IMG/VR virus record: IMGVR_UViG_3300013120_000025
Location: 1-36,917 of that record
Length of the DNA: 36,917 nucleotides
Direction: 5' to 3' (one strand)
From: a virus
Shown here: positions 1,558 to 32,879 of the stretch, one piece after another
How positions within the stretch are numbered: position 1 is the first letter of the stretch
How the letters are laid out: every line of letters starts with the position of its first letter
Made by a program: the position numbers and the translations under genes
Notes under the pieces: model-generated
Seen by the model: only the letters and a program-made list of their open reading frames with translations
Told to the model about the DNA's origin: nothing
Databases searched by the model: none

Positions 1558-1999
1558 GGTCGCGCCCCAAGCTCCGATCATACATGACGATTGCGCCAGT
1601 TGTGGCAACGTTCAAGCAATAGGTTGAGGGCACCTCAATGATGTTGTCGCATAGTTCGCTCGCATCAGCAAGGCCCGTGTCCTCTGCGCCAAGAATGTAG
1701 ATTGCGCGTTCTTGATGACAGAATCGCCCAAGCGGGACAGATCTAAATTCGATCTCTATTCCCACTAGCGCACAATCTCGCGGCTTGCTAGAGATAAAAT
1801 ACGCCAATGTGTTGAACTCAAACAGCGGGATGTGTCGCTGCGCCTTGGTCGTGTCAGTCGGTTGATGTTTGTATCTCGCCCCGATGGTGAAGATGAATGC
1901 CGCTCCTAGTGCATGGGCGCTGCGCCACAGGCCGCCGACATTCTCTTCAAACTTGGGATGATAGATTCCTATCCCGAAGTATCCACGTTGGTTGCTCAT
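1544..1999 (-). CDS. SpoU/TrmH-type SPOUT RNA 2'-O-methyltransferase
   Basis: This compact 151-aa protein carries the three SpoU-family motifs in order. Motif 1 is NVGGLWRSAHALGAAF (about residues 16-31), with the Asn and Arg expected for RNA binding and catalysis. Motif 2 is YILGAEDTGLADA. Motif 3 is YCLNVATTGAIVMYDR, where Cys replaces the usual Ser of S-L-N. Together motifs 2 and 3 form the knotted AdoMet site. Family members methylate ribose 2'-OH in tRNA or rRNA. The substrate here cannot be read from sequence. There is no extra RNA-binding domain. The ATG at 1999 has AAGGAG ten bases upstream. The gene sits between an SSB-like candidate and the replication initiator. Confidence 0.85.
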   Translation of the reverse strand: MSNQRGYFGIGIYHPKFEENVGGLWRSAHALGAAFIFTIGARYKHQPTDTTKAQRHIPLFEFNTLAYFISSKPRDCALVGIEIEFRSVPLGRFCHQERAIYILGAEDTGLADASELCDNIIEVPSTYCLNVATTGAIVMYDRSLGRDHGIR

Positions 2000-4175: not shown

Positions 4176-4824
4176 TGGACTCAGCTTTCAGCCGCTTCAG
4201 ATAGGTGGCATACGCATCATGTACTTGCGCCGCGCCTTCCTTTCCACAGTCGGCCTTGACCTTGGCTCCCACTTCCTTCCACCACGGAGCGAACGTCTTA
4301 GCATCAGTGTTGCTGGCCTTCTCGCACTCGTTCAGCCAATGTTCGATAGCATCTCGGATGGATAGGTCATCGTCCTCACCTGATGCCTCTGGATCGTCAC
4401 CCCAGGAGATGAGGAACTTGCCAGAACAGGCGTACTTGATCGCGGCGGTGTTGGCCTTCATCACAGCCTTGTCGCCGGAGTCAATGCCGGACCCCAGCCC
4501 CTGCGCCCTTGCGATGAAGATGCCGTCCGTAAAGAACAGAGAGGTCTTCACCACAGCGAGCGACTTTGCTCCGATAATGTGGAACTCCACGATGTCCGAT
4601 TCGCTCTCTACGCTGATACCTTCTTTCGCGCATTCGTCGCGGACCTTGTCCAGCACCTTGCGAGCGGTAGCGTAGGTATACGAGAACAAACTTCCCGTCA
4701 TTGTCGCGTCCTTCTGAAGATAGCCGATTGAATCCATGATGCGGACCATCTTCGCGTTGAACTCGTCCACGCGATCAAGTAGCTTTGCGTCCGTCAACTT
4801 CTCTCCAACAGCGGTAAGGTTCAT
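4162..4824 (-). CDS. erf: ERF-family single-strand annealing protein
   Basis: The protein has 220 aa. Residues ~35-60 (YLQKDATMTGSLFSYTYATA) and ~105-140 (AQGLGSGIDSGDKAVMKANT, then AIKYACSGKFLI and WGDDPEA) match the ERF signature. In that signature a Lys-rich start is followed by a G-x-G-x-D-x-x-DKA-x-x-KA core and a GDDPE end. ERF proteins anneal complementary single strands during phage recombination. The last ~70 residues are a helical, Lys/Glu-rich region of unclear role. The gene pairs with the YqaJ exonuclease downstream. Its ATG overlaps the upstream stop (ATGA). Confidence 0.9.
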   Translation of the reverse strand: MNLTAVGEKLTDAKLLDRVDEFNAKMVRIMDSIGYLQKDATMTGSLFSYTYATARKVLDKVRDECAKEGISVESESDIVEFHIIGAKSLAVVKTSLFFTDGIFIARAQGLGSGIDSGDKAVMKANTAAIKYACSGKFLISWGDDPEASGEDDDLSIRDAIEHWLNECEKASNTDAKTFAPWWKEVGAKVKADCGKEGAAQVHDAYATYLKRLKAESNDPA

Positions 4825-5000
4825 TCTGCCTCCTTGTTGCCTACCGTCATCCCATGTTGTCGTAGGATTGACGCCGCCTCAGACGTGGATAGGATGCCAT
4901 CCCTCCCAAAAGAATCGTCCAGATCTCGCGCTTCTTGTATAATCTCGCGGGCGCTGGCCAGCTTGCCGTTAATCGTATACTTCTTATCATCCATGCTCAT
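4821..5000 (-). CDS. Hypothetical small early protein (59 aa)
   Basis: The start is the ATG at 5000, five bases behind AGGAGG and overlapping the upstream stop. The 59-aa product (MSMDDKKYTINGKLASAREI at the start) is charged and mostly helical. Its C-terminal half, LSTSEAASILRQHGMTV, resembles a short helix-turn-helix or excisionase-like segment, but is too short to assign. It overlaps erf by four bases, so the two are probably co-translated. Confidence 0.6.
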   Translation of the reverse strand: MSMDDKKYTINGKLASAREIIQEARDLDDSFGRDGILSTSEAASILRQHGMTVGNKEAE

Positions 5001-5170
5001 TCTGCCTCCTTGAGTTCGCTCCAAAAGGCCATCCCGATCTCAAACAGTCGCCCGTCTACGTCAATTCTTACGGTTGATCCGCTGATCTCTTGGACCGACC
5101 ACGCTTTGTGCTTGCTGAGTAATTCAATCGCTTCCTTCTCAGTGAGATTACATTTCTCGTATCGCTTCAT
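4997..5170 (-). CDS. Hypothetical small early protein (57 aa)
   Basis: This short gene begins at the ATG at 5170 behind GGCAAGGAGGATGGACG and ends in TGA overlapping the next start (ATGA at 5000-4997). The product starts MKRYEKCNLTEKEAIELLSK. It looks like a helix followed by a small beta sheet (VQEISGSTVRIDVDGRLFEI). No family is recognised. Overlap at both ends and a clear ribosome site make it credible. Confidence 0.6.
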   Translation of the reverse strand: MKRYEKCNLTEKEAIELLSKHKAWSVQEISGSTVRIDVDGRLFEIGMAFWSELKEAE

Positions 5171-5418
5171 CGTCCATCCTCCTTGCCGTCATCATCGTGA
5201 CGGTCGTGCGTGTCGCGTACGCGCTTCTCAAACGCGAGCAGCTCGTTGAAAACTTCCTGCTCAACCTCAGTGAGCGGCGCGAGATGGGCTTGATCGTCTT
5301 CCCGGTGGTCGCGCTCGATGGAATACTCCTCCCGGCTCGCGCTGTAGAAGACTTGCTGGCCGTCGATCTTGGCGAACGTATCGAGGATCTTCACTGGTTC
5401 GTAGCCTGGATAGCTCAT
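5167..5418 (-). CDS. Hypothetical acidic early protein (83 aa)
   Basis: The product has 83 aa and starts MSYPGYEPVKILDTFAKIDG. After a short beta region it becomes strongly charged, with a Glu/Asp/His-rich C-terminal third (EKRVRDTHDRHDDDGKEDGR). It is tied to both neighbours by ATGA overlaps, and GAGGAGG lies nine bases before the start. Function is unknown. The acidic character would suit a protein that mimics DNA or binds a host factor, but nothing specific shows this. Confidence 0.55.
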   Translation of the reverse strand: MSYPGYEPVKILDTFAKIDGQQVFYSASREEYSIERDHREDDQAHLAPLTEVEQEVFNELLAFEKRVRDTHDRHDDDGKEDGR

Positions 5419-5672
5419 GGGGCCTCCTCGTCTTCAATGTGCGCGACCATCTCACGCAGTAAATGCTTGGATATAGGCGAGAGATCTTTTACGATGTATG
5501 AAATCTGGAAGACGTCACGAGCATCACCCCAAGCGAACATAGCCTGGAATGCCTCATTCAAAAAAGCTGCTTGCTGGGTTGAGTCCCCTTCAGCAAAGAG
5601 CTTAGCCATCTCTTGCGGCGATATCTCGATCTCTTCGTCTATTCTCTTGTGAACGATAAATCCGTCCATCAT
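5415..5672 (-). CDS. Hypothetical early protein (85 aa)
   Basis: The 85-aa protein begins MMDGFIVHKRIDEEIEISPQ and is predicted all-helical after residue 15. The middle (STQQAAFLNEAFQAMFAWGD) is amphipathic and the C-terminus is acidic. AAGGAGG stands six bases before the first ATG. It overlaps the downstream start by four bases. I do not recognise the family. Position and size are typical of phage early host-takeover genes. Confidence 0.55.
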   Translation of the reverse strand: MMDGFIVHKRIDEEIEISPQEMAKLFAEGDSTQQAAFLNEAFQAMFAWGDARDVFQISYIVKDLSPISKHLLREMVAHIEDEEAP

Positions 5673-5680
5673 CGCCCTCC

Positions 5681-5893
5681 TTACTTCGTCAGCTTGCTTC
5701 CCAGCGCCGTCTCGAATGCCCGGATCGCTCGCCCCGACGGCCCGCCCTTGTATACGTCGCGCTCCACGTTACTCACATACGTCACGCTGTAGCCCATCTT
5801 GTGCGCGAGGACGGCTTGCGTCCAGCGATTGGCCTCACGCGCTGCCCGGATTCGCTGGCCGATGGTCTTGAAGTCTTCGTTGTACTTGGTCAT
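5681..5893 (-). CDS. Cro/C1-type (XRE) helix-turn-helix regulator
   Basis: The start at 5893 has CAGGAGG six bases upstream, overlaps the preceding stop (ATGA), and gives 70 aa. Residues ~10-62 are a full XRE domain: IGQRIRAAREANRWTQAVLA, then HKMGYSVTYVSNVERD for helices 2-3, and RAIRAFETALGSKL. The same frame stays open to 6016 but that stretch lies inside another gene. It is likely an early transcription switch. There is no divergent promoter beside it, so it does not look like a classical lysogeny repressor. Confidence 0.85.
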   Translation of the reverse strand: MTKYNEDFKTIGQRIRAAREANRWTQAVLAHKMGYSVTYVSNVERDVYKGGPSGRAIRAFETALGSKLTK

Positions 5894-6243
5894 GATTCCT
5901 CCTGTATCGGGAAGCGCATATCCGCGCCCATTTCTACGCATAGATCGGCCAAGCCGCATGTGCTCACACCAACCAACTCTTCGGGCAAAACGGGGGCGGT
6001 CATCTTGGAAACCCATTTAGAGTGTCCGGCTTCGGCTAATTCTTTTGTCGCGTAAGTCTCTACGATTATCAACTCGCCATCGTGATATCTCGGATGAGCC
6101 ACTGCCGTTTCAAAGGGATCATCGCTATCGAACACCGCTGCTGCCGATATGTAGAGCCGCTCATCTCTCTCGTCTTGATATTGAGCGACGCGCCGTTCGT
6201 CATAATTCCCGATATGGTCGAGGAAGCCGAATAGATCACTCAT
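5890..6243 (-). CDS. Hypothetical early protein (117 aa)
   Basis: The 117-aa product starts MSDLFGFLDHIGNYDERRVA. It has a mixed alpha/beta pattern in which YHDGELIIVETYATKELAEA suggests a strand-helix unit often seen in small phage proteins that describe a value updated per element. The C-terminus (GADMRFPIQEES) is acidic. No catalytic motif is visible. It overlaps both neighbours by four bases. Function is unknown. Confidence 0.55.
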   Translation of the reverse strand: MSDLFGFLDHIGNYDERRVAQYQDERDERLYISAAAVFDSDDPFETAVAHPRYHDGELIIVETYATKELAEAGHSKWVSKMTAPVLPEELVGVSTCGLADLCVEMGADMRFPIQEES

Positions 6244-6407
6244 CCCGCCTCACCTCCGAACTCGTGCGGCTGAACTCCCGCCGCTTCCTGTAGCTCCTCG
6301 ATCGCGCAAAGCGTGCGATACAGCTTCGCTCGGTCGCCAATCTCTCGTGCGGATTCGGCCTTCGCCTCAAGCCGGTTGATCTGCTCGCGGATCTCGGGGC
6401 GCGTCAT
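6240..6407 (-). CDS. Hypothetical helical protein (55 aa)
   Basis: This short gene starts at the ATG at 6407 with GAGGCGA upstream and ends in TGA overlapping the next ATG. The product begins MTRPEIREQINRLEAKAESA and is an uninterrupted amphipathic helix or coiled coil for about 45 residues, with a Gly-rich tail. ATGA overlaps at both ends support it. No family is recognised. Confidence 0.55.
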   Translation of the reverse strand: MTRPEIREQINRLEAKAESAREIGDRAKLYRTLCAIEELQEAAGVQPHEFGGEAG

Positions 6408-6697
6408 GATTCGCCTCGGGCTTTGGCGAGGACTTCACCGATAGCTTCGGCCAACGCTGCATTGTGTTTGTTGGCTAAAGCGTACCCTTCTGCGATCAAA
6501 AGCATTTCGTACATCTCTGGCGCGGCGGCGATGAGATGGGCGTTGGCATCTGATTGAGTTTTGAATCCCACCTCGCCAATCCATGCAATCTCTTCCGTTG
6601 CTTCTGTCCCGCAAATGGGCGCAATCACCTGAGCTTCTAGCGAGTCCGGGTAGATCTCTGCTTCCCACGGTCCCTTGGTAAACTTCGCTTCGTTCAT
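6404..6697 (-). CDS. Conserved phage early protein with AAPEMYE motif
   Basis: The start at 6697 follows CAAGGAGGCAAGACG and gives 97 aa. The motif SDANAHLIAAAPEMYEMLL (about residues 48-66) is the hallmark of a very common small phage protein family of unknown function. The N-terminus (FTKGPWEAEIYPDSLEAQVI) also fits that family. It is the first gene behind the early promoter at 6725-6753, so it should be expressed first. Its role is unknown. Confidence 0.8.
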   Translation of the reverse strand: MNEAKFTKGPWEAEIYPDSLEAQVIAPICGTEATEEIAWIGEVGFKTQSDANAHLIAAAPEMYEMLLIAEGYALANKHNAALAEAIGEVLAKARGES

Positions 6698-6724
6698 CGT
6701 CTTGCCTCCTTGTCTTACGTTCGA

Positions 6725-6753
6725 AGCGTACACTATTTCAACAAGGATGTCAA
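6725..6753 (-). promoter_or_regulatory. Early promoter (TTGACA-17-TACGCT)
   Basis: On the minus strand a perfect -35 box TTGACA (6753-6748) is followed by 17 bases and TACGCT (6730-6725). Transcription should begin near 6718, leaving a ~20-base leader with AAGGAGG before the gene at 6697. It lies directly after the terminator at 6758-6790, so it restarts transcription for the early genes. Confidence 0.8.
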
Positions 6754-6757
6754 GCGC

Positions 6758-6790
6758 AAAAGAAACGAGGATGGGCGTGCGAACCCATCC
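6758..6790 (-). terminator. Rho-independent terminator closing the late operon
   Basis: On the minus strand GGATGGG (6790-6784) and CCCATCC (6775-6769) make a 7-bp stem with an 8-base loop. It is followed by a T-rich tract (TCGTTTCTTTT, 6768-6758). It is the only clear stem-plus-T-tract terminator I found and stands between the last late gene and the early promoter. Confidence 0.8.
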
Positions 6791-6810
6791 CCGCAAGCGA
6801 AACTTCAGTC

Positions 6811-6831
6811 CCTCCCTATAGGGAAGGGAGG
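6811..6831. other. Hairpin just after the last late gene
   Basis: CCTCCCT (6811-6817) and AGGGAGG (6825-6831) form a 7-bp stem with a 7-base loop two bases after the stop of the 30-aa peptide. No T-tract follows on the minus strand. It may protect the 3' end of the late mRNA ahead of the real terminator. Confidence 0.5.
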
Positions 6832-6832
6832 C

Positions 6833-6925
6833 TTAAAGCGTTCCAGTTATCAGCAGACCGGCCAGTAGGCCGATCGCCATGCCTATCAGCGCCAGTATGA
6901 TTCCCTCAAGCATCAGCCAGATCAT
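6833..6925 (-). CDS. 30-aa hydrophobic membrane peptide
   Basis: The ATG at 6925 lies one base after the lipoprotein stop codon. It opens a 30-codon frame that begins MIWLMLEGIILALIGMAIG and is almost wholly hydrophobic with small residues, a single membrane span. The ribosome site is poor (CCGGGGTG), but coupling to the upstream stop could serve. It could be a holin-like or antiholin-like peptide at the end of the lysis region. A chance open frame cannot be excluded. Confidence 0.45.
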   Translation of the reverse strand: MIWLMLEGIILALIGMAIGLLAGLLITGTL

Positions 6926-6926
6926 G

Positions 6927-7889
6927 TCAGCACCCCGGATAAGACGTTGTAGGGATTGACCACGACTCAGTAGTTGTTGCGCCCATCTCATCCTCAAACG
7001 TTGCAGTGATTACGGTCATGCCAAACGGAATAGCGTCCTTGGGCCATTCCAGCCCGCACGTTCCTCCACCCGGATAACCTCCACCAACCGACCAATCAGG
7101 AGGCGAGTATGGGCGGTCCGTCCCGACAACAACCGGGCCGATGTTCGCCCAGTAAGCCTTCGCCGGAGGAGCCTTGGTTGCGGTGTTTTGCTTGCACCGA
7201 TAGGCAACGCCATCCTTCCGCACCAGATCTCCAACGACATACGCACGGTTCGCCTTCCACCGAGCGAAGACATTCAAGCTTACATCAATCGGCGCATTCC
7301 AGATAGCAAAGAACATGAAGGCATTCTCAAGCGTTCCTTGCCCCGTCTCGACGTGATACACATCAGGCTTCGGGGGATTCATGCCCTCATAAGGAGGACA
7401 GAACACCGAGTTCTCTTCGCCTTGACCCGTGTTAAATACCGTCACATTAACCAGCGTTACATCACCGCCCTGCGGATCGTAGGTGTCCGGGAATGTTACA
7501 GTGTATTGCTGTCGTGGATGTATCCACCAAAGATCCTCGATGCCGTTTAACCGAGGAAGCCCGATCACAGGCCCAGTGTTCTCCAGCCCAATCCTGGCCG
7601 TCGCCGTCTGGTAATCGCCGTCACTACTTTCCCAGGCCACCTCAACAGTACAAGGCAGACTGTGTATCGTCACTATCAACTTGTTGCTCGTCTGTACATA
7701 GGTCTTGCCCTCAACCGTGAACGCGTATTGTCCATCTCCCACGCCAGAAGCAATCAACATCGCCTCAAGCGGAGGGTATCCGGATTCAGGAGCAGACAGA
7801 GTAAGTACCCCTACACCACTATCCGGAATCAAAGTGCATCCGGTTAGTAGAAAGGAAAGGAATAGGAAAAACAGTAGTTTGCGTTTCAT
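6927..7889 (-). CDS. Predicted lipoprotein with a C-terminal carbohydrate-binding module
   Basis: The ATG at 7889 (GGGAGG seven bases upstream) gives 320 aa with a textbook lipoprotein signal: MKRKLLFFLFLSFLLTGC, with Cys18 as the lipidation site. Residues ~25-200 are beta-rich and resemble Ig/PKD-like folds. About residues 210-255 match the chitin/cellulose-binding CBM5/12 pattern (WKANRAYVVGDLVRKDGVAY, then RCKQNT and a closing YW). The protein should be anchored in the host envelope, facing periplasm or surface. Possible roles are superinfection exclusion, envelope remodelling or binding a surface glycan. None can be chosen from sequence. It is the penultimate late gene. Confidence 0.75.
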   Translation of the reverse strand: MKRKLLFFLFLSFLLTGCTLIPDSGVGVLTLSAPESGYPPLEAMLIASGVGDGQYAFTVEGKTYVQTSNKLIVTIHSLPCTVEVAWESSDGDYQTATARIGLENTGPVIGLPRLNGIEDLWWIHPRQQYTVTFPDTYDPQGGDVTLVNVTVFNTGQGEENSVFCPPYEGMNPPKPDVYHVETGQGTLENAFMFFAIWNAPIDVSLNVFARWKANRAYVVGDLVRKDGVAYRCKQNTATKAPPAKAYWANIGPVVVGTDRPYSPPDWSVGGGYPGGGTCGLEWPKDAIPFGMTVITATFEDEMGATTTESWSIPTTSYPGC

Positions 7890-7905
7890 TTCGCACCTCC
7901 CAGTA

Positions 7906-7935
7906 CGAGAATGCAGCGCAGGGGCAGCTCTCGTT
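7906..7935. other. Hairpin before the lipoprotein gene
   Basis: ACGAGA (7906-7911) pairs with TCTCGT (7930-7935), and inner GC/GC pairs strengthen the stem. On the minus strand it lies in the 92-base gap between the secreted-protein and lipoprotein genes, about 15 bases upstream of the lipoprotein start. No T-tract follows. It could modulate read-through or translation. Confidence 0.45.
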
Positions 7936-7981
7936 CTACCCCCGCGACTGCGCAAGGAGGCCTTCGATGAAGAAGACCGAT

Positions 7982-8491
7982 TTACAACTCGATGTCGAAG
8001 TCAACCCTGATGCCAAGTGTAGGCTTGAAAGTAAGCCAGTTGGTCCCATCCCAAGGGAAGGATGCCCCTCCCCACAACGCCAGCGGCCCCACATACCCCT
8101 CAAGCATAAACCCAGGTTCTCTGGCAATAAGTTTGTATTGCACAGGATATTGCGACTTGTACGTGGCTGTCTGGAATATAGCTAGCGAGCAGCCATAAGC
8201 AAGACTACCCGTTTGGTTGATCGTTGCTCGTTGATTGAAGTATACGTTCGCGTCGAAGTCCAAGTTGAACTTGCGATTTGCGTTTAGGATATTCTTGTCG
8301 AAATACTCAAAGCCCATGTCCATCGTCCATGCGTCGGCAAGAACCCCCTCGACAATCGCACCAACCTCCAGAGTGGGCGCTGCTGTTATCCCCACGTTCT
8401 CGATCTCGAAATATGGATTGATACTTGGTCCTGCAAAAGCGACCGCCGATAGAACTGCTGTCATCAATAGCGATAGTATCCGTCGTTTCAT
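7982..8491 (-). CDS. Secreted beta-rich protein, possible outer-membrane barrel
   Basis: The 169-aa product has a Sec signal peptide (MKRRILSLLMTAVLSAVAFA, cut after AFA). The mature part is a run of alternating strands rich in Phe, Tyr and Trp: INPYFEIENVGI, ANVYFNQRATI, YPVQYKLIAR, WLTFKPTLGI, ending RVDFDIEL. The strands and size (~150 residues) fit a small outer-membrane beta-barrel, but the final residue is Leu rather than the usual Phe. AGGAGG stands five bases before the ATG. In a phage late operon it could alter the host surface. A role in phage exclusion or release is inference. Confidence 0.6.
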   Translation of the reverse strand: MKRRILSLLMTAVLSAVAFAGPSINPYFEIENVGITAAPTLEVGAIVEGVLADAWTMDMGFEYFDKNILNANRKFNLDFDANVYFNQRATINQTGSLAYGCSLAIFQTATYKSQYPVQYKLIAREPGFMLEGYVGPLALWGGASFPWDGTNWLTFKPTLGIRVDFDIEL

Positions 8492-8499
8492 ATTTCCTC

Positions 8500-8766
8500 C
8501 TAGATTCCTACTGTAGGATCTGCCAGCAAACTCTCAACGAAGTCATTCACTTTCCGCCATCCGGCAGCAAAAGCAGCTTGCCAATCCGGGCCGGTTACCT
8601 CGAAGAGTTTCCGCAGATGAGGCCGAACGTCATCGGCCAGTTTGAGGGGATCGACTTTCGCCAATAGCTTGATTGCTAAAGCCGCGCCCTGTTTCCGCAC
8701 AAGGACCACAATCAATTCCAGTCCTTGCTCCTTGATCCAATTCCACGCCGAAGTCAGAATGAACAT
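8500..8766 (-). CDS. Hypothetical protein (88 aa) in the lysis region
   Basis: The 88-aa protein begins MFILTSAWNWIKEQGLELIV, with a moderately hydrophobic N-terminal helix (LELIVVLVRKQGAALAIKLL). The remainder is amphipathic (PHLRKLFEVTGPDWQAAFAA). It could be membrane-associated, and its place after a holin candidate suggests a lysis role. There is no lysozyme, amidase or peptidase motif. AGGGGGCG lies before the ATG, and a promoter (8790-8817) is predicted directly upstream. Confidence 0.5.
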   Translation of the reverse strand: MFILTSAWNWIKEQGLELIVVLVRKQGAALAIKLLAKVDPLKLADDVRPHLRKLFEVTGPDWQAAFAAGWRKVNDFVESLLADPTVGI

Positions 8767-8789
8767 GCGTCGCCCCCTTGTATGCCAAG

Positions 8790-8817
8790 ATTATACTTCA
8801 TTCATCCTTTGACGCAA
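8790..8817 (-). promoter_or_regulatory. Possible late/lysis promoter (TTGCGT-16-TATAAT)
   Basis: On the minus strand TTGCGT (8817-8812) is followed by 16 bases and a perfect TATAAT (8795-8790). It overlaps the end of the holin-candidate gene and lies 24 bases before the next start. A consensus -10 in a coding end could be chance, so support is moderate. Confidence 0.5.
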
Positions 8818-9061
8818 AACCATCGTCGATGCGGTCCTCTGCCCGTCTGTGGCGATTCCGACTGTCCGACTCCCTCACCGCCTTGATGATATCCTTTACG
8901 TCCGTCGCGGACATGCCATTGCTCTTAGCTGTTACCACTGTATTCGATGTGATCGCATTTGTGAGTTTCCGTATTGCTGGATCGAGCCTCACTAGAACGA
9001 ACGTCGCCACGAACACAGGAAAGCCAACCGCCCCGATGAAATCTCCTATTGTCTCCCACAT
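8798..9061 (-). CDS. YvrJ-like membrane protein, holin candidate
   Basis: The 87-aa product begins MWETIGDFIGAVGFPVFVAT and has one membrane span (about residues 8-26) ending in VLVRLDPAIRKLTNAI. The pattern G-FPV-x-V-x-x-x-L-V-R-x-(D/E) is that of the YvrJ family, small proteins often found near phage lysis genes. The rest is polar and helical. It would insert in the host inner membrane. A holin role is inferred from family, size and position after the tail genes. AAGGAG lies before the ATG. Confidence 0.65.
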   Translation of the reverse strand: MWETIGDFIGAVGFPVFVATFVLVRLDPAIRKLTNAITSNTVVTAKSNGMSATDVKDIIKAVRESDSRNRHRRAEDRIDDGFASKDE

Positions 9062-9070
9062 GCTGACTCC

Positions 9071-10141
9071 TTAGAAACCCGCCGCCTCTAATCCAGGCGT
9101 GGCCGCCATCCCGTAGAATTTCACGTTCACGTAAGACTGCCATCTCGTCACATAGTTTCCGTTCTTGTCTACTTTATAGATGAAGTTGCCGGATGAACCT
9201 GCAAGGTACCGATAAACAACATAGACATTCCCTTCGGCATCGACCGCGCACGCATAGGCATAAGACGACAGCCCCGGCGTGTATTCCCAGATAGTGACCC
9301 CGGTCGAGGGCTCAAACTTGCACACCTTTTTCTCGGACTCGCAGGTGAAATATCCGTAACCGTTATGAGCAATTTCTATGCTGTGAATGGCGTCGCCGCG
9401 CGTCTTCGTCCAATACACATATCCATCCGAGCTGAGTTTGTTATAGTTACTATGAGAATCCCCGCTATAAACCCTCCCGGATGTATCGCACGCCAATGCC
9501 ATAATGTGATATGAGCTTGAGAATATCTTGACGAATGTGCCTGTACTTACAGCCGCGCGCCACACCCCTTTCGATGCAGCAGCAACTCCAACACCGGCAT
9601 ATACAAGACCATTCGCGGCATCAACCGCCAACGCGTACACCGGCGGAGTGAATGTGATGTCCACATTCACAGACCACACATCAGAAGAGGAGGCTCCATT
9701 ATCGCGCAAGCAAATGACACCGCCGCCGAAGTCAGAGTAATACACATAGGTGACTCCAAGTCTGTTCTCTAGCGCAACGGCCAATGATGTCTCTGCCCAT
9801 CCAGCGTGGGACCATGCGAACGACCCATCAGCGTAGAGCTTTACAAGCGTTGTGCCCACACACCAGTAGGATTCCCCATCAGAGTTCACGGCAACAGCAA
9901 GCGCATCTGCTAGATCATAGTGCCAATCCTCTACGCCGGTATCGGTGATTCGGTATAGTTCATCATTGACTGACTCAGAGGTATAGATATAACGGTCGGC
10001 CTCGGCCAACGTGATCTGCTTGATGCCATCAATGTCTACCGCGTTGATTGTGCCGGTCACGATAGCGCCGCCGACCTTGGCATACTCCCCGACAACTTGT
10101 TTGATCGCCCCGCCGATTTTTACGTACTTGCCTTCAGCCAT
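9071..10141 (-). CDS. Beta-propeller-type tail adhesin candidate
   Basis: The 356-aa protein starts with a short repeat-like linker (GKYVKIGGAIKQVVGEYAKV, then GGAI). From residue ~45 it carries six or seven copies of a ~45-residue blade with D-x-x-G-x-x-Y/W motifs (SDGESYWCVGTTLVKLYADG; DTSGRVYSGDSHSNYNKLSS; DAEGNVYVVYRYLAGSSGNF). This is the pattern of NHL/PQQ-like beta-propellers. In a tail operon such a domain would most likely bind a surface ligand. It follows the fibre-like gene at 10143 by one base. No enzymatic motif is seen. Confidence 0.7.
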   Translation of the reverse strand: MAEGKYVKIGGAIKQVVGEYAKVGGAIVTGTINAVDIDGIKQITLAEADRYIYTSESVNDELYRITDTGVEDWHYDLADALAVAVNSDGESYWCVGTTLVKLYADGSFAWSHAGWAETSLAVALENRLGVTYVYYSDFGGGVICLRDNGASSSDVWSVNVDITFTPPVYALAVDAANGLVYAGVGVAAASKGVWRAAVSTGTFVKIFSSSYHIMALACDTSGRVYSGDSHSNYNKLSSDGYVYWTKTRGDAIHSIEIAHNGYGYFTCESEKKVCKFEPSTGVTIWEYTPGLSSYAYACAVDAEGNVYVVYRYLAGSSGNFIYKVDKNGNYVTRWQSYVNVKFYGMAATPGLEAAGF

Positions 10142-10142
10142 T

Positions 10143-10613
10143 CTATACCTCGTAAACCATAGCTATCTCACCATTTTCGAGATCGCCCGCACCCGGAACA
10201 GAAGTCAGCAGTTTGATGTTCCTGACCATCGCCGTCGTGTAACTCGTGTCGGGGAAGTCTCCGATTAGCGGGCCTGTCATCGTGTCGCCGCCCACGTCCA
10301 CCTTTGCCTCATCAAGGGCTGTAATAGCATCGCTTAGTACAGTATCCGCGCTCGCCCTCGCTGTTGCTTCTGTGGTCACGTCCGACTTCAAGGCGATGTC
10401 AGTTTCCTCATCTGGGGCGGCAACCTTTGCGCGTCCCTCTGCGTCGCGGATAAGGATCTTGCTCGCCGTCGCTGCCGATACCGCGCCGTGAACTCCCGTC
10501 GTTGCATCGGCGTGCTCTTTCAGGTAAACGAGATTCTCACCTATCTCATTGAGGTCGCCATACGCTACCCCGTTCTCTGCGCTCCAATCTATCTTTGGTG
10601 CTGTCCAAGCCAT
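10143..10613 (-). CDS. Tail fibre/collar-like protein (156 aa)
   Basis: The N-terminus (MAWTAPKIDWSAENGVAYGD, then LNEIGENLVYLKEH) matches a segment frequent at the start of phage tail fibre and structural proteins. Residues ~40-110 contain HGAVSAATASKILIRDAEGR and a helical stretch TTEATARASADTVLSDAITA typical of trimeric fibre shafts. The C-terminus is beta-rich. It lies between the tail hub and the beta-propeller gene, consistent with an adsorption module. GGAGGAGATC precedes the ATG. The exact position in the virion is unknown. Confidence 0.65.
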   Translation of the reverse strand: MAWTAPKIDWSAENGVAYGDLNEIGENLVYLKEHADATTGVHGAVSAATASKILIRDAEGRAKVAAPDEETDIALKSDVTTEATARASADTVLSDAITALDEAKVDVGGDTMTGPLIGDFPDTSYTTAMVRNIKLLTSVPGAGDLENGEIAMVYEV

Positions 10614-10622
10614 GATCTCCTC

Positions 10623-13568
10623 CTAATTGACAGTTCCAATTACATTCGCCGTTCCGGTCAAGGACTTATGGAATATCTTCATCTTGTCTATCGCCCCGCC
10701 CACGTTTACCGTTCCCGCAAGCGCCTTGGCTGTCTCTCTTCCAACCGTTCCGGCTGCGTTCACTGTCGCCATTATTTGCTTGCTGATAACTCGCTCGACT
10801 GATGCAGAGATCTCAATCCCGCCCTCATGAGGATTCGGCGCAACCACAATCGAAGGCTCCACATTCAGCGTAGTCGCCAGTGACTTGTGATAGATCGTAT
10901 GTCCGCCGATGATGTTCTGCCCGGTAATCATCACTTCCATGCCGCCGTCGTAGTTGATGTCTTGCCGCGCAAGTGAGAACTCGCTAGTCACTTCGTCGCT
11001 GTAGTCAGGGGCGATGATGCGATCACCTAGAAGCTCCGCGATATTCCCCCGCGCTTTGATCTGTACATTGCGAAGAGGATCTTTCCACGATGCCAACAAA
11101 GCGTCCGCCGCTGCCTGTGATTGGGCTTCCGTCTGCCAGAACTCAGAGGTGATGGGCGAACTCAAAGTCTGTCGCCCGTTTGATGCGATGCTGGTTGCGT
11201 CTTCGGCTTCTACTATCCTGCCACCTTGCACTTCTAACGGTTTGCCCTGGATCGTTACCGAAGTAACTGTTTCATCTCCACCATTGCCATTCTCGTAAGT
11301 GGCAACGCAACCCCAAGCGTAGGTGGTAACCGCCGTGCAAGTTACGTTGCCGCCCGGATTTACAAATACCCAGGCAGCAGGATTGTCCGCTACATCGACA
11401 CACGGCGTGAAGTCAAAGAAGTGTGTCTTGGATACCGAGCTTCCGGTTGGCACAGTGAATGTCTCAGTGTCCAAGCAGATGTCTTGCAGAGCAGAGGCTA
11501 CTCGCGGATTTGCTCTAGCTTGTACTGAGTTGATCATCTTCGACCAATCAAGCGGGTGGTCAATGTCAAAGAAGTTGCCTTCGTAGAACTCGAAATCATG
11601 CGTCGTAGCTGCCGCCGCTTCGTAAATCTCAATGACTACAATGCCATCACGATTACAGTAGACTTGCCCAAGCGCCGCCGCTGCGATCCTCCTCAGGGCT
11701 TCTCTGTGAGACATCGGAGAGAACCACGCGTAAGGGATTGTATAGTCTGCTGTGTCTAGCGCGGCATCAATGTCCCAATCGGCAGAAGTCAACCCCGCGT
11801 CAGTCATCACAGTCACGGCGAGATCGTGCAGCGTGACATCCGTGTAGACTTCCGAGGTGGAGAACTCTGTCTGCTTCAACCTGTCAAGCATATCGTAGCC
11901 AGTAACCTCAGCCCACGCCTCACCCTCGGGCGCTTTCCAGTCACGGCTATAAAACGTCCCAAGCGGGAACCATGCCCGGACACCTGATCTGCAATCGCAT
12001 CCGAGCCATGCTTTGATTGCTCTGTTGTTCAACAACATCCCAGACAGCCGCGAATGATAGTTACCATCCGTGAACAGGCGGTCAATGTTATTCAGCCTAA
12101 TCCTGATCGAGTTAGCTGAGATATTCCCTTGCGGAATCGTCGGTTCAGAGTATTCCATTTCTTCCAACACACGAACACCGAATAGCTCGCCGTCCTCGGA
12201 GGTGTAAGTCTCCTCAAGCATCGTGTAGAACTGAGAAATCTTACACACTGATGAAACGCGGCTCCACTTCAGAACGTCAAGAGTTTGCTTCACGATGTCA
12301 GCCTGATCAGGGCAGTCAAACTCATAGGTGACAAGCGCGTTCTCAGTTACGACCTTGGTGTATTCCAAAACATCGCCAGTCGAATATAGGCGAACGGTAA
12401 AATCAACGGGATACTCTTCCAGCTTATCGTCTCCAACAACCAACAGACTCTCAATCGTGCGCGCCGTGTGAGTGATGGTCAGAAGCTGACTCCCCGGCGT
12501 GAATGCCCCGGTCACTGCGTTGGAGAGAGTTGCGCCCCACCATCCTACACTGTATTCCTGATTAGACGGCAGCGGGTGAAACGTCCCGTCAAGCGTGTTT
12601 CTGTGAAGTGAGAACCACTTAAAAGCCTCTGTCTGCACGTTATCCGTAGTCTGGGTAGGGTATGTGTATCTGCCCGTCTCAGTAGCTTCGGCCTCAATTC
12701 CGGCTGAGAAAAACGGATCGGTGTAGGTGATCTGAACCTTGGCGAGAATGGTCCGAATCGTCTTGTTCATCTCGTAAGCCATATCGTAGGCTTCACGTGC
12801 AACTGTAGCGCCCGCGTTGACCGTGGCCATGATCGATTTGTGAATGACCCTTCCAACTGTCGCAACAATCTCAACACCGCCGCCGACGATCTTCCCGGTT
12901 TCTCGCGCAACAGCCGCAGAGATATTGACTACGGCTGCAAGGGCTTTCGATATGTCCCGTCCGACTGTGCTGTGGATGTTTACCGTTGCCGTGATTGCTT
13001 TTCCGATTGAACGCTGGACCGCGCCAGAGACTTCAACTGTAGCGGCGAGAGCCTTGTGAAATATCTTCATCTTGGTCAACGATGCCACGATGTTGACTGT
13101 GGCTGTCAGGGCTTTTGTCATTGCACGCTCAACCGTGCCATGTATGTTTACCGTTGCCGTGATCGCTTTCGTCATCGCCCTGGCTACGGTGCCATGTATG
13201 TTGACCGTCGCAGTCAGTGCTTTTGTCATCGCACGCGCTACCGTGCCGTGGATGTTGACTGTTGCTGACAGCGCTTTTGTCATTGCTCTGGTTACGGTCA
13301 CTGATGCTTCAACCGCAGCCGTGAGAGCCTTGTGGAATATCTTCATCTTGGTCAGCGACGCAGAGACGTTGACCGTTCCTGCTAGGGCTTTCGCAATCGC
13401 TCGCGCTACTGTGCCGGATACGTTGATAGTTCCGGTGATGGGCTTACCTACCGCACGCGCAACCGATCCCGAGACATTGACAACGGCAGAGAGGGCTTTG
13501 GTAAATATGCCAGCCCGTCCGCCTGCTGCGCCATACCTTGTTGTCCCATATCGATTGCGTCCGTACAC
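10623..13568 (-). CDS. Large tail-tip/hub protein bracketed by 18-residue repeats
   Basis: The 981-aa product starts with GTG at 13568 (AGGTGATTT before it). Residues 20-259 are 13 tandem ~18-residue units with consensus like MTKALTATVNIHGTVARA. Residues ~265-880 form a non-repetitive core resembling tail-hub/baseplate proteins, containing GVRVLEEMEYSEPTIPQGNI, NSIRIRLNNIDRLFT and EVTGYDMLDRLKQ. The last ~90 residues return to the 18-residue repeats. A family role in the tail tip between tube and fibres is inferred from the core and from its place after the tape measure. The flanking repeats probably form an extended beta structure that contacts the host or neighbouring tip proteins. Confidence 0.75.
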   Translation of the reverse strand: MYGRNRYGTTRYGAAGGRAGIFTKALSAVVNVSGSVARAVGKPITGTINVSGTVARAIAKALAGTVNVSASLTKMKIFHKALTAAVEASVTVTRAMTKALSATVNIHGTVARAMTKALTATVNIHGTVARAMTKAITATVNIHGTVERAMTKALTATVNIVASLTKMKIFHKALAATVEVSGAVQRSIGKAITATVNIHSTVGRDISKALAAVVNISAAVARETGKIVGGGVEIVATVGRVIHKSIMATVNAGATVAREAYDMAYEMNKTIRTILAKVQITYTDPFFSAGIEAEATETGRYTYPTQTTDNVQTEAFKWFSLHRNTLDGTFHPLPSNQEYSVGWWGATLSNAVTGAFTPGSQLLTITHTARTIESLLVVGDDKLEEYPVDFTVRLYSTGDVLEYTKVVTENALVTYEFDCPDQADIVKQTLDVLKWSRVSSVCKISQFYTMLEETYTSEDGELFGVRVLEEMEYSEPTIPQGNISANSIRIRLNNIDRLFTDGNYHSRLSGMLLNNRAIKAWLGCDCRSGVRAWFPLGTFYSRDWKAPEGEAWAEVTGYDMLDRLKQTEFSTSEVYTDVTLHDLAVTVMTDAGLTSADWDIDAALDTADYTIPYAWFSPMSHREALRRIAAAALGQVYCNRDGIVVIEIYEAAAATTHDFEFYEGNFFDIDHPLDWSKMINSVQARANPRVASALQDICLDTETFTVPTGSSVSKTHFFDFTPCVDVADNPAAWVFVNPGGNVTCTAVTTYAWGCVATYENGNGGDETVTSVTIQGKPLEVQGGRIVEAEDATSIASNGRQTLSSPITSEFWQTEAQSQAAADALLASWKDPLRNVQIKARGNIAELLGDRIIAPDYSDEVTSEFSLARQDINYDGGMEVMITGQNIIGGHTIYHKSLATTLNVEPSIVVAPNPHEGGIEISASVERVISKQIMATVNAAGTVGRETAKALAGTVNVGGAIDKMKIFHKSLTGTANVIGTVN
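10626..10901 (-). repeat. C-terminal block of 18-residue repeats in the tail hub
   Basis: About five units occupy residues ~890-981, including ISKQIMATVNAAGTVGRE, TAKALAGTVNVGGAIDKM and KIFHKSLTGTANVIGTVN. Their order copies that of the N-terminal block (a GGxEI-type unit, then IMATVNA, then a KMKIFHK unit). The protein ends abruptly in the middle of a unit. Confidence 0.85.
12792..13511 (-). repeat. N-terminal block of 13 tandem 54-bp repeats in the tail hub
   Basis: Residues 20-259 contain 13 units of 18 residues, three of which are 20 long because of a KIFHK insertion. Units 5-8 are nearly identical (MTKALSATVNIHGTVARA, MTKALTATVNIHGTVARA, MTKAITATVNIHGTVERA, MTKALTATVNIVASLTKM). The DNA is conserved too: GCCTTGTG-AATATCTTCATCTTGGTCA recurs at ~13328 and ~13046 with single-base changes. 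Confidence 0.92.
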
Positions 13569-13575
13569 AAATCAC

Positions 13576-14097
13576 CTATACTTTCACCGTTGTGTGGATT
13601 TTCTTGGCAAGGGCTTTCGACTCTGAAGTGATCGCTGCATCGTAAGCAGCGATCACTTCAGATGTGTGGATTTTCTTGGCAAGGGCTTTCGACATGACAT
13701 CCGCACCACTCGGATCTTGCCCTGGTGCAATCCATGATCTATGGTATTTCTTAGACACCTCAATCCCATCATCATAAATGCGAGTGATGCGTCGGATCGA
13801 TATTCGTCCCAAATCGTCCAGGGTGCGATCGTAAGTGACGACTTCTTCAATCCCCTCGCCCACAGGCTCTTGATGCTCAATAGTAAAATCAGCCAGCACC
13901 TTCTCGTCAGTGATCGCGGCGACAATATCCTTTGACACATCATCCCATCCGACCATGTTTGAGGTGTCTGCTGGCGTCATAGGGTCGCCGTATTTCTGGC
14001 TTATCACTTCGTCGCCTTCCGTATATTCAGTGAGTAAGCGCACTTGGATGTGTCCATTCTCCGTGACTGAGTGGTGAAATTTTTGTTGTTTGTTCAT
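13576..14097 (-). CDS. Tail-associated protein with duplicated domain and repeat-expanded C-terminus
   Basis: The 173-aa protein contains two related segments. The first is ENGHIQVRLLTEYTEGDEVI plus SQKYGDPMTPAD (residues ~13-45). The second is DLGRISIRRITRIYDDGIEV plus SKKYHRSWIAPGQD (~95-128). The second matches a family commonly encoded next to tail fibres, which usually ends shortly after an EVIAAY helix. Here the end is extended by a duplicated SKALAKKIHT motif. GGGGGGGCG precedes the ATG at 14097. The role is probably structural in the tail tip. Function is not known. Confidence 0.6.
   Translation of the reverse strand: MNKQQKFHHSVTENGHIQVRLLTEYTEGDEVISQKYGDPMTPADTSNMVGWDDVSKDIVAAITDEKVLADFTIEHQEPVGEGIEEVVTYDRTLDDLGRISIRRITRIYDDGIEVSKKYHRSWIAPGQDPSGADVMSKALAKKIHTSEVIAAYDAAITSESKALAKKIHTTVKV
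13591..13693. repeat. 31-bp direct repeats flanking a perfect 17-bp inverted repeat
   Basis: The 31-base sequence beginning TGTGTGGATTTTCTTGGCAA occurs at 13591-13621 and 13663-13693 without mismatch. Between them TCTGAAGTGATCGCTGC (13622-13638) and GCAGCGATCACTTCAGA (13646-13662) are perfect inverted copies with a 7-base loop. The whole array stays in frame at the C-terminus of the tail protein. Confidence 0.95.
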
Positions 14098-15832: not shown

Positions 15833-16204
15833 CTATACCTCCTCTAAGATAAACGTGGCCCCTTTCCAGAGCCATTGATCCATCGCCAGCAAGCGCGTCC
15901 TCTTGAACGGCTTGAAGACTACCGTGTATTCGTCAATCGAATCATCATCACGCTCTACCTTGAAGTTGAGCGTCGAGCCTCGATTGTATTCCGTCATCAG
16001 ATTGTCAAGCGTCGTTTGATTCATCACCGAGTACGTCAGCTTGAAGCGTTTTTTCGTGGCTATCCTATCCATCACAAGGTCGCCGTTTGCCACTCGGCCC
16101 CTTCGTTCGATAACGTAATCCTCTTCCAGCAAGGCACTCCACCCTGACTCGAATAGCGTTTCTGAGTCTTCAACGCCTAGCCACAATCTGCCGGCAACGC
16201 TCAT
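15833..16204 (-). CDS. Distal tail-like minor tail protein (123 aa)
   Basis: The protein has a beta-rich layout (LWLGVEDSETLFESGWSALL; then RGRVANGDLVMDRIATKKRF; then YTVVFKPFKRTRLLA, ending ATFILEEV). The middle motif, in which an object is stripped to GDL-x-RD/MDRI and followed by K-x-x-F-K-x-T-Y, is typical of small proteins that cap the tail tube after the tape measure. Its ATG at 16204 overlaps the tape-measure stop by four bases. Assembly at the distal tail is inferred from position and fold pattern. Confidence 0.6.
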   Translation of the reverse strand: MSVAGRLWLGVEDSETLFESGWSALLEEDYVIERRGRVANGDLVMDRIATKKRFKLTYSVMNQTTLDNLMTEYNRGSTLNFKVERDDDSIDEYTVVFKPFKRTRLLAMDQWLWKGATFILEEV

Positions 16205-18972
16205 AGTGTGCCTCCTCGCCGTTCGTCCTCTGCCTGTAGTGGCTCATAGAGCGCCTGAGCAAGTCGTGTCAAGAGATCCGGCGCTGATCCTGTACTCCGT
16301 TTCTCTCCCGCGATTTCCGCCATGGCATCGTATGTCCCCGCATAGACCGCCTCGCCCATGAGTTCGTAATCAAGTGCGCCCGCTGCCCTCTCTTCTGGCG
16401 TTAGAACTTCCTCGCCGCCGTGAACGATTGCCATTTGAGGCGCACCGATTGGGCCGGGTACAACGCCGCCTAGTGCATAAGACGGTGCCACTTCCGCATT
16501 CCTTATGTCGAAGAAAGGAATCAGACTGATCAGTTCTCTAATAGATTCATCCAATTGTTGCCCAAATTGGTGCGTCTTTGCTGGATCTGTTTGTCCATAG
16601 GCCAGTGGAGCGAGAAATGCAAGTGCAGGCGATAGGCTAATTCCGGCTCCAATTCCAGCCAATGCGGTGTTGGCTGACTCAGCCGCAAGTTCTGATTCAA
16701 ATGCGATGTTCCATATTTGATCAATCGCCCACTCTGCGGCCTTGTCCAGGCCGGATTGGATAATGGCATTCGCCATATCCTTGAAACCTTCCTCTATGAT
16801 GTCTTGCATCCTTCGTTGATGATCTTCTTCTGCGTCTTCTGTTTTTCGATGGAACGTAGCAAAATCCCATAGCATATCCGCGACTGTAGACGAAACAATG
16901 TCGCGATATGTTTCTCCCCACACCTTCACATCGTCAGTGCTGTCCTCTAATGTAATACCAAGCTTTTCATAAAGCGCTATGAGTTCCAACAGCCTCACGG
17001 ATACATCTTTACTCTGGCCTATAACTGCTTCCTCAGCCGCGATCAGCTTTGCATACTCCGAGCGAATCTTTTCTACAACAACGATATAATCTAAGCTTCC
17101 CTTTTCGGTATTATCTAATTCAGCTCTTAGGTCTTCTAGCGCCTTCTCAGCGGCTTCAATCTCAACCGTCGTGAAAGCAGCCACCATGTCTTCGATGTCT
17201 TTCGTCGTATCTTCAATCTCATCGCCGACGGTTTCTGCTGTCTCGGATAACCCAAGCCATGTATTGATTAGCTTTTGAGCACCTTCATCGTTTTCAGCAA
17301 GAGCTTCTAGCAAAGCAAGAATCGCAATTTTCGCTTCGATGGCCGCCTCTCCAACGGGCACATCCTTCATCTCTTCGCCAATGCGAATGAGTCCAGCAAC
17401 AATTGCCTTATAAGTGTCTTCGGATAATTGCCCCACATTAAGCAACTCAGCCGCCGCCGTAGAAACAGCATTGATATAGATAGATACTGTCTTTTCGGCG
17501 TCGCCCACTAATCCTGGTATTATACTGAGAGAGAGGGAAAGGGATGCTAACGCAAGATCCAATTCCGACGTTTTATTAGCAACCTTATCTAACCCATCTT
17601 TCAAAGCAGCAGCAGCAACTTCCGCATTGAGCATCTCTTTTGCAGAACTTTCAACTCCAATGATGAAAAGAGCGATACCCCCAGTCAGTAATCCAATAGA
17701 CGCGCTGAGAGGATCAATCGCGAAGCGAACCGCAGCGAATCCTATTGCTATAGTAATCAAGGCGGACTTGACTGCGCTTGCGTTTCTCTGTAACCATTCG
17801 AGCCCCGCAATAAGGCCATCGAAGATTGATTTGATGGCACTTCCAATTCCCTCTCGGTTTTCCTCCAACCAGTACAACAAGTCCTTCAGGTTTTCAGTGA
17901 GGTCTTTTCCGATATCTACCCTGAGGGTTTCCCACCACACAGCAAGCTCATTGAGTTGAAATTGGATACCCGTTGCCATCTCCTCATAGGCCGCATCCGC
18001 CGCACCGGCAGAGTTTGCCATCTCGTCTAGGATCTCGCGCAGGTTGCCTAGTGATACGCCGGACAGATTGAGCAATCCTTGTTGTGCCTGAATATTGGTG
18101 GTTAACTCGGCTATACTAATCCCCGCTTTGTCGGCAGCTCCCTGCAAGATTTCCACGATGTCTGCGATGTCTCCACCGGCTTCGAGATATGCAGGGAAGG
18201 ACATGCCAGCAGCCTCAACGAATACCTTGTTGAGTTCCTTGCCCTCGAATGCAACCTCATTCAACAGCGAACGAATCTGTGTCATGCCAACGCGCATCGG
18301 GACACCGCTCAATGTGATTTGTGCAGCCGCTGCTGCTACGTTGTGGAATTCAAGGCCAAGTTTTGCAGCTAGTGGAGCAGCCTGGAACAGGCGGGCAGCC
18401 AATTCGTCAAAGGTTGTCTTGCCTTCCTTGACGGTAGTGAACATGATATCCGCAGCTTCTTGCGCGGAAATAACTTCAGAGCCGTAGGCATTCACCACTG
18501 TCGTCAAACCATCGACTGCTACTTCTAGTTCCGTTACTCCACCGATAGCAGCCTTGCCCGCAATCTCCATGAACTCAAAGACGTTCTCTTTCGGAATGCC
18601 TGCGCTGATTGCTTGATACAGAGCTGGAATGACTTTGGTAGGCAGGACAGCAATCTCTTTAGAGAGCGCCTTTACATCCTTCGTCATTTCCTGTCTGGCT
18701 TGAGTAGACAGCTCAGGCATCAACGTGAATACTTCCCTCATGCCCGTGTCGAATTCTACAAAGGTCTTGACAGCGGAAACACCAAAGGCAACAACGGCAG
18801 CAGTGGCCGCAAGCGCAGCGGCCTTAGCATACTTCGTGACAGACGCAGACATCTTGCCGACAGTCTTGTCGAAGGTCGAGACTTTCTTTGTCGCCCCGTC
18901 CATCTTGCGGTCGAAGTCTTTCATGTCGCCCAATAGGGCAACTGCCATAGAACCTACGTTACCTAGTGCCAT
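16201..18972 (-). CDS. Tail tape measure protein (TP901-type)
   Basis: The 923-aa protein is the largest head-tail gene after the hub. Residues 1-60 contain a helical start (MAVALLGDMKDFDRKMDGAT). Residues ~60-330 match the TP901/PhageMin_Tail core, with FDTGMREVFTLMPELSTQAR, LYQAISAGIPKENVFEF and a TTVKEGKTTFDELAARLFQA segment. A membrane-like stretch lies near 390-450 (ALITIAIGFAAVRFAIDPLS), and long coiled coils follow. The C-terminus has VHGGEEVLTPEE. It sets tail length and is ejected ahead of DNA. At ~0.15 nm per residue it predicts a tail of about 140 nm. GGGGAGG precedes the ATG. Confidence 0.93.
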   Translation of the reverse strand: MALGNVGSMAVALLGDMKDFDRKMDGATKKVSTFDKTVGKMSASVTKYAKAAALAATAAVVAFGVSAVKTFVEFDTGMREVFTLMPELSTQARQEMTKDVKALSKEIAVLPTKVIPALYQAISAGIPKENVFEFMEIAGKAAIGGVTELEVAVDGLTTVVNAYGSEVISAQEAADIMFTTVKEGKTTFDELAARLFQAAPLAAKLGLEFHNVAAAAAQITLSGVPMRVGMTQIRSLLNEVAFEGKELNKVFVEAAGMSFPAYLEAGGDIADIVEILQGAADKAGISIAELTTNIQAQQGLLNLSGVSLGNLREILDEMANSAGAADAAYEEMATGIQFQLNELAVWWETLRVDIGKDLTENLKDLLYWLEENREGIGSAIKSIFDGLIAGLEWLQRNASAVKSALITIAIGFAAVRFAIDPLSASIGLLTGGIALFIIGVESSAKEMLNAEVAAAALKDGLDKVANKTSELDLALASLSLSLSIIPGLVGDAEKTVSIYINAVSTAAAELLNVGQLSEDTYKAIVAGLIRIGEEMKDVPVGEAAIEAKIAILALLEALAENDEGAQKLINTWLGLSETAETVGDEIEDTTKDIEDMVAAFTTVEIEAAEKALEDLRAELDNTEKGSLDYIVVVEKIRSEYAKLIAAEEAVIGQSKDVSVRLLELIALYEKLGITLEDSTDDVKVWGETYRDIVSSTVADMLWDFATFHRKTEDAEEDHQRRMQDIIEEGFKDMANAIIQSGLDKAAEWAIDQIWNIAFESELAAESANTALAGIGAGISLSPALAFLAPLAYGQTDPAKTHQFGQQLDESIRELISLIPFFDIRNAEVAPSYALGGVVPGPIGAPQMAIVHGGEEVLTPEERAAGALDYELMGEAVYAGTYDAMAEIAGEKRSTGSAPDLLTRLAQALYEPLQAEDERRGGTL

Positions 18973-32667: not shown

Positions 32668-32879
32668 TTGCACTCCCTTATCGCCGCAACACACATCGCG
32701 GCAACTTGGATCAGTTCCTTTCGTCCATCTTCGTCGCGCTTGACAAGTTCCCAATACTCGTCAAGCTCTTCCAGTATAACAGCATACGCCTCATGCTGGC
32801 TGTGAAACGCTGGGAACTTCTTCCGGGCGCTCTGAATCTCCGCTTCGATCTGCTGGTAGATTGTCACACTGGCCCCCAT
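32637..32879 (-). CDS. MazG-like nucleotide pyrophosphohydrolase
   Basis: This 80-aa protein has the MazG-like layout in a single short domain: EIQSARKKFPAFHSQHEAYA, then VILEELDEYWELVKRDEDG with the E-E-x-x-E metal motif, and ELIQVAAMCVAAIRE. Such enzymes hydrolyse nucleoside triphosphates to monophosphates. Phage copies are thought to adjust alarmones or dNTP pools. The start is uncertain: ATG at 32879 or GTG at 32867. Either way the gene overlaps the PAPS-reductase-like gene out of frame by 77-89 bp. Confidence 0.75.
   Translation of the reverse strand: MGASVTIYQQIEAEIQSARKKFPAFHSQHEAYAVILEELDEYWELVKRDEDGRKELIQVAAMCVAAIRECKCQANQKPAS

Follow-up and report, generated by a model that had tools for sequence, protein, structure and literature searches.

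18-residue repeats on both sides of a tail hub-like core in a viral genome from IMG/VR

In many tailed phages it is the extensions of the hub that determine what is bound. Those of Tal-type hubs have been described as mostly C-terminal, and extensions, hubs decorated with CBM domains and linker repeats are all already known, as set out in the parts of PMC7291167 on which we draw. In the same passages the Tal-like segment is placed well inside lambda gpJ (starting at about residues 326–330) and T5 pb3 (about residue 530), and fibronectin III repeats are suggested to act as linkers in gpJ (PMC7291167). Our search of the literature on repeats in tail hubs and minor tail proteins found no short repeats of the same kind on both sides of a hub. 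The IMG/VR virus record IMGVR_UViG_3300013120_000025, all 36,917 bases of which were analysed and are referred to here as the window, encodes a hub-like protein in which an 18-residue repeat is present both before and after the core.

The hub gene, its core and its neighbours

The hub protein gene occupies 10623..13568, as an earlier note on this DNA had correctly placed it. It is on the minus strand and reads from 13568 to 10623, encoding a protein of 981 residues from a GTG start. The Shine-Dalgarno-like sequence AGGTGAT lies directly 5′ of the GTG, and the TAG of the gene upstream ends at 13576. The gene is located in a tail module, downstream of the tape measure protein gene (16201..18972, minus strand) and with small tail genes also upstream. 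Immediately downstream, and adjoining it, is the gene for a 156-residue protein (10143..10613, minus strand) with weak similarity to tail-fibre families, followed by that for a beta-propeller protein (9071..10141, minus strand; phrog_8401); both proteins are matched in all six of the related loci L013–L018 described below, the second with identities of 31–62%. The beta-propeller protein is a candidate for a separate receptor-binding protein. The 173-residue protein encoded just upstream of the hub (13576–14097, minus strand; phrog_6228) has no match in these loci although its neighbours are conserved, and its position is a variable slot.

Two other genes near the tail module code for a putative lipoprotein (6927–7955, minus strand), with a lipobox-like LTGC recognized by eye and a CBM_5_12 match just under the cut-off, and a protein with a signal-peptide-like start (7982–8491, minus strand); matches near the tail module are found for the former in L013, L014 and L015, and for the latter in L014, L015 and L016. 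The two could have a superinfection exclusion role, and they suggest that the host may have an outer membrane. The window also includes a phage-borne SpoU-family RNA methylase gene (1544–1999, minus strand; PF00588, E = 3e-15) and, on the record that also carries the head and tail genes, a gene of the phosphoadenosine phosphosulfate reductase family (32791–34119, minus strand; phrog_2302, E = 2e-85).

The core of the hub protein, residues 272–882 (10923..12755, minus strand), is predicted to have the fold of gp27, VgrG and Mu gp44, and its description as a conventional hub-like core is borne out by the predicted model together with the fold matches. Foldseek and VIA match residues about 272–882 to phage, contractile-injection and VgrG hubs with E-values down to 9.3e-07, and most of the hub matches of the core model have Z scores of 10–14 over 205–290 residues. 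The AlphaFold2 model of the whole protein, built from an 11-row alignment, has a mean pLDDT of 59.7; most ten-residue blocks of residues 360–830 are at 60–92, compared with about 50–60 for the repeats. By sequence, the core aligns to phrog_13879 (unknown function) and weakly to phrog_10359 (minor tail protein). The whole hub protein gave no match as a query against the phages collection, and the core alone gave weak matches to minor tail proteins of Streptomyces and Arthrobacter phages (E down to 4e-3, ~25% identity). Within the core is a CBM32-like beta-sandwich insert, residues 283–450 (12219..12722, minus strand), a feature absent from the earlier description; it matches 4uap_B, a CBM32 structure, with a Z score of 9.5 and an rmsd of 3.5 over 123 aligned residues, and as beta-sandwiches are common the likeness is one of fold only.

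The repeat blocks and their relatives

The N-terminal block extends over residues 24–261 (12786..13499, minus strand) and is composed of 13 tandem units, the number reported previously, with a spacing of 18 residues except for two steps of 20; KALTATVNIHGTVARAMT is an example of a unit. Autocorrelation of the block gives an identity of 0.46 at lag 18, against a maximum of 0.18 in 500 shuffles over lags 5–59. The 20-residue units, at residues 60–79 (13332..13391, minus strand) and 152–171 (13056–13115, minus strand), are of a variant type with a KMKIFHK loop, and the second unit from the core is a GGV unit (residues 226–243; 12840..12893, minus strand) with a counterpart at the same place in relatives. 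Alignment of 58 regular units from the clade proteins yields the consensus K-x-L-x-[AG]-x-V-x-[VA]-[TS]-G-[TS]-V-x-R-x-I-x, in which the constrained positions are the odd ones (K1, L3, A/G5, V7, V/A9, G11, V13, R15 and I17) and the even positions are less so; a charged residue is present at K1 in 90% and at R15 in 97% of these units. Most of the changes in unit length are found between R15 and the K1 that follows. The strict every-second-residue pattern makes it plausible that the repeat is beta-structured, as had been supposed.

The C-terminal block, residues 895–981 (10626..10886, minus strand), is less regular. About five units had been proposed to follow the core: three of these (starting at residues 912, 930 and 948) pass the unit profile, whose threshold was reached by 4 of 394,740 shuffled positions, and the other two, which are degenerate or partial (895 and 968), are recognized by eye only. 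Units 930 and 948 belonged to the profile seed, and autocorrelation of the C-terminal block alone is not above that of shuffles (best lag 0.26, shuffled maximum 0.27). Among homologues outside the seed, 2–5 profile units follow the core in each of L013–L018, and these back the C-terminal block. The proposal of a hub core with one repeat type at both ends is supported. The window block aligns with that of L015 without gaps over 85 residues and is collinear with it, the stop codon of the window protein lying at the point where a globular domain begins in L015. The block includes a GGI unit (residues 912–929; 10782..10835, minus strand) resembling the core-proximal GGV unit of the N-terminal block, and a 20-residue unit of the KMKIFHK variant (residues 948–967; 10668–10727, minus strand). 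Because the KMKIFHK variant and the GG unit are present in both blocks of the window protein, we conclude that the blocks are related to each other.

With the core as query, viral_contigs yielded 9 loci in a first scan and 70 in the next, and genome_contigs yielded none in the first and two in the second. Among 73 core homologues the 18-residue repeats are confined to a single clade, the window and L013–L018, plus an eighth, cut protein, L003. Across ORFs of at least 60 residues in 72 sources (the window, L003 and L013–L082), the unit profile finds one or more in-register unit pairs in only 8 of 5353 ORFs, all of them hub proteins. In a tree of 52 cores, with a root placed by midpoint only, the seven repeat-bearing rows form one group with support of 100/100, and L083, found in a bacterial MAG, is placed closest to them (95/98 for these eight together); a further 33 rows are beyond a 100/99 branch, none of them in the labelled groups with N-terminal extensions. 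Repeats are present at all seven of the N-termini visible in the clade (window, L013–L017 and L003) and at all seven visible C-termini (window and L013–L018), the units of L018 being irregularly spaced. Core homologues with non-repeated termini, which together with an absence of variation in reads the earlier note would have counted against its reading, are indeed many, but all are outside the repeat-bearing clade; the five distant hubs whose complete sequences were inspected terminate immediately behind the core.

A repeat-block scan of viral_contigs gave 12 pattern matches, none of which was confirmed, and two weak plasmid matches (E = 3e-3 and 4e-3), one of them annotated LPXTG, are read as low-complexity similarity. 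The only Pfam match of the window protein is to WIF at 0.15, and at 0.01 there is no Pfam match in the seven clade proteins, including their terminal regions beyond the repeats. The repeat block has no match among PDB sequences and scattered weak ones only among PHROGs (best 0.0021).

Repeats of another kind are found in the same N-terminal position in four other hub relatives, L021, L032, L044 and L083, in which 7–25 units of 20–21 residues follow an extra CBM-like domain and precede the core; C-terminal repeats were not seen in these four. Five more (L040, L046, L049, L052 and L057) have an extra N-terminal CBM-like domain and no clear array by the 20–21-residue profile. In the L083 hub (4314–9866), which is 1850 residues long, the core is preceded by two arrays of 20–21-residue repeats and by CBM-like domains in more than one copy. 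Some units of the two repeats are alike (KALTA occurs in both), which prompted their comparison; homology was rejected, as the profile comparison probability is 0.02%, below the best column-shuffled and reversed controls. Since different repeats, unjoined by profile, occupy one N-terminal slot, this position seems to favour spacers. Within the wider clade a spacer at the N-terminus may be an older trait, and only the clade of the window has the C-terminal repeats and the terminal domains.

The outermost parts of these proteins vary. The window protein opens with the motif YG.NRYG..RYGA (residues 1–17; 13518..13568, minus strand), which also opens the proteins of L013, L014 (in a looser form) and L016, and is found twice more near the C-terminus of L013; its presence at the N-terminus and near this C-terminus fits both ends sharing a role. 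Beyond the C-terminal repeats, five of the seven visible C-termini (L014–L018) continue into regions that from their sequences appear to be globular domains, and nothing globular is present there in the window protein. The domains are of two sequence types, one in L014, L015 and L016 and one in L017 and L018 (0 of 500 shuffles for each pair). In L003 the repeats are preceded by a long additional region. The N-terminal piece of L015, which is cut by the contig end, resembles the C-terminal domain of the same protein (score 48, null 28.0 +/- 4.8, 1 of 500 shuffles); in comparison with the terminal regions of L014, L016, L017, L018 and L003, none stands out.

Possible roles and folds of the repeats

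We think the chances are about even that the window protein is a Tal-type hub with beta-structured stalks at both ends that carry terminal adhesion modules. On this reading it is a tail hub of the Tal/gp27/VgrG type from a siphophage-like virus, and its core contains a CBM-like domain. The 18-residue beta repeats added at both termini would act as stalks, each unit forming an alternating beta segment stacked against its neighbour, and the unit count would set the stand-off of the terminal module from the tail tip. The outer ends bear globular domains or the small YG.NRYG..RYGA motif in the relatives, and in the window phage the N-terminal arm ends in this motif and the C-terminal arm is bare. 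We infer the stalk function, a trimeric assembly and binding of the host by the terminal modules. In favour of this reading are the hub fold of the core, the place of the gene after that for the tape measure, the modules outside the repeats in relatives, the differing array lengths with unit similarity declining away from the core, the scaffold-like conservation and the other repeat type in the same N-terminal slot. A C-terminal arm without a load is odd, however, and this and the pLDDT of about 50–60 in the repeats count against the stalk reading, as do the lack of a Pfam name at 0.01 for the terminal regions and the fact that of six comparisons of the L015 N-terminal piece a single one stands out. 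A bolder version, which we offer tentatively as a doubtful possibility, is a two-ended receptor-binding hub, a trimer with an N-terminal and a C-terminal arm on each chain, made of the same repeat and bearing related caps, in which modules have been swapped or copied between the ends and the 18-residue repeat has replaced an older 20-residue one; if true, there would be six arms at each tail tip.

Alternatively, the repeats themselves could be an adhesive or sealing surface that forms a beta-structured collar round the hub, as the earlier note had suggested. The repeats do sit on the hub, nothing follows the C-terminal block in the window protein, and the strong conservation of charge at K1 and R15 could give a basic surface; but the outermost part is a globular domain in five of seven relatives, the variable positions are the even, presumably exposed ones, and the unit number is not conserved. 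Because of these globular domains, and because the conserved positions look scaffold-like, a stalk is the likelier of the two, and we regard the collar as rather improbable.

A different question is how the repeats fold. Both AlphaFold2 runs model them as a beta-solenoid, and the fold search returns solenoids; the repeat part of the model superimposes on the bacterial antifreeze domain 3p4g, one of the best matches, with a Z score of 23.5 (rmsd 2.3, 250 aligned), and the repeats alone, modelled from a 40-row alignment with a mean pLDDT of 58.7, with a Z score of 11.7, although many unrelated solenoids match as well. AlphaFold2 is reported to produce confident but unrealistic beta-solenoids from repeats, with internal charges stacked (PMC11795689), and K1 and R15 do share parity with the hydrophobic residues. 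In view of the mean confidence under 60, this bias and the parity of K1 and R15, we do not rely on the solenoid model, to which an obligate trimer fold is a natural alternative. A beta-barrel pore, raised by the alternation of residues, was set aside, there being 28 aromatic residues among 1800 in the units and no aromatic girdle seen.

One trimeric arrangement would be an intertwined shaft, either a triple beta-spiral or a triple-stranded beta-helix, in which the C-terminal block would prolong the hub axis in the manner of the VgrG/T4 gp5 spike. Known proteins with this hub fold are trimers, the core end at residue 882 of the model corresponds to VgrG residues 344–345, where we take the hub to pass into the spike, the monomer model of the repeats is not confident, and the length changes fall mostly in one loop, from R15 to the next K1. 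However, the classic triple beta-spiral has a fixed Gly or Pro turn, which is lacking in the repeat consensus, and K and R are on the hydrophobic parity; we see the shaft as unlikely, though worth keeping in mind.

The DNA of the arrays bears on how they change. The units had been called near-identical in DNA, but the 13 N-terminal units compared as 54-bp stretches average 0.53 identity with a maximum of 0.80, and not one of the 78 pairs reaches 0.9; at positions with the same amino acid in two units, the codons are different in 509 of 789 pairs. Exact DNA repeats reach 20 bp at most, and Tandem Repeats Finder reports only 3.7 copies at 76% (13083–13283). Ready change of copy number by slippage, which had been expected of near-identical units, is thus unsupported, and slippage or phase variation as a present-day mechanism was rejected on account of this divergence; the arrays are old, and presumably kept by selection on the protein. 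Differences in repeat number among related phages, which the earlier note had proposed to look for, do exist: there are 13 N-terminal unit starts in the window, 17 in L013, 10 in L014 and at least 13 in L015. The 3–4 units nearest the core are about 51–63% identical among the window, L014 and L015, and similarity of units between phages drops with distance from the core. For 57.5 of 100 units the nearest relative belongs to the same protein, more than expected (13.7 on average in permutations, 28 at most), yet the best partner within its own protein adjoins the unit in only 17.1 of 97 cases. In the L016 protein (6257–9457) there seems to be a higher-order repeat as well, with a larger period, about 76 residues (unit starts 44, 120 and 196).

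The arrays are better explained by slow gain and loss, perhaps in blocks, than by slippage. Copy number acting as a length switch within a population, through slippage or recombination, could be suggested by the differing array lengths and by the partial homogenization of units within each protein, but the divergence of the unit DNA (mean 53%), the gapless collinearity of the window and L015 C-terminal blocks and the scarcity of neighbouring best partners make it very unlikely. We give next to no credence to a monomeric ice-binding beta-solenoid, for which a regular T-x-T (or T-x-N/D) face is the motif: the 3p4g superposition and the occurrence of T4-x-T6 in some units point towards it, but the model is of low confidence and subject to the solenoid bias noted above, unrelated solenoids match equally well, and ice binding was rejected because T4-x-T6 is found in only 10 of 100 units and 3 of 8 proteins, being absent from L014, L016, L017, L018 and L003.

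Comparison with described hubs

The cores that are bare, those with one repeat type and those with a second type at both ends provide a natural series for tail-tip reach and module swapping, and the repeat itself is a short, regular and probably beta-structured one that is unnamed in the libraries searched and not confidently modelled by AlphaFold2. With the Tal/gp27/VgrG hubs of siphophages, myophages and the T6SS, the window protein shares the core fold, the position of its gene after the tape measure and modular extension, and it differs from them in the 18-residue repeats that flank its core on both sides. CBM-decorated evolved Tal proteins, as presented in the relevant parts of PMC7291167, likewise have a CBM-like domain within a gp27-like core; in contrast to these, the window protein has repeat arms and only weak matches in the phages collection, and its likeness to CBMs is in fold only. 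Where lambda gpJ and T5 pb3 are concerned, the window protein has short 18-residue repeats instead of fibronectin domains, and has them on both sides of the hub. The hub relatives L021, L032, L044 and L083 share with it a homologous core, N-terminal repeats and CBM-like domains, but their repeats are of 20–21 residues and none is seen C-terminally. The hub with repeat arms is an uncommon variant of a familiar phage design.
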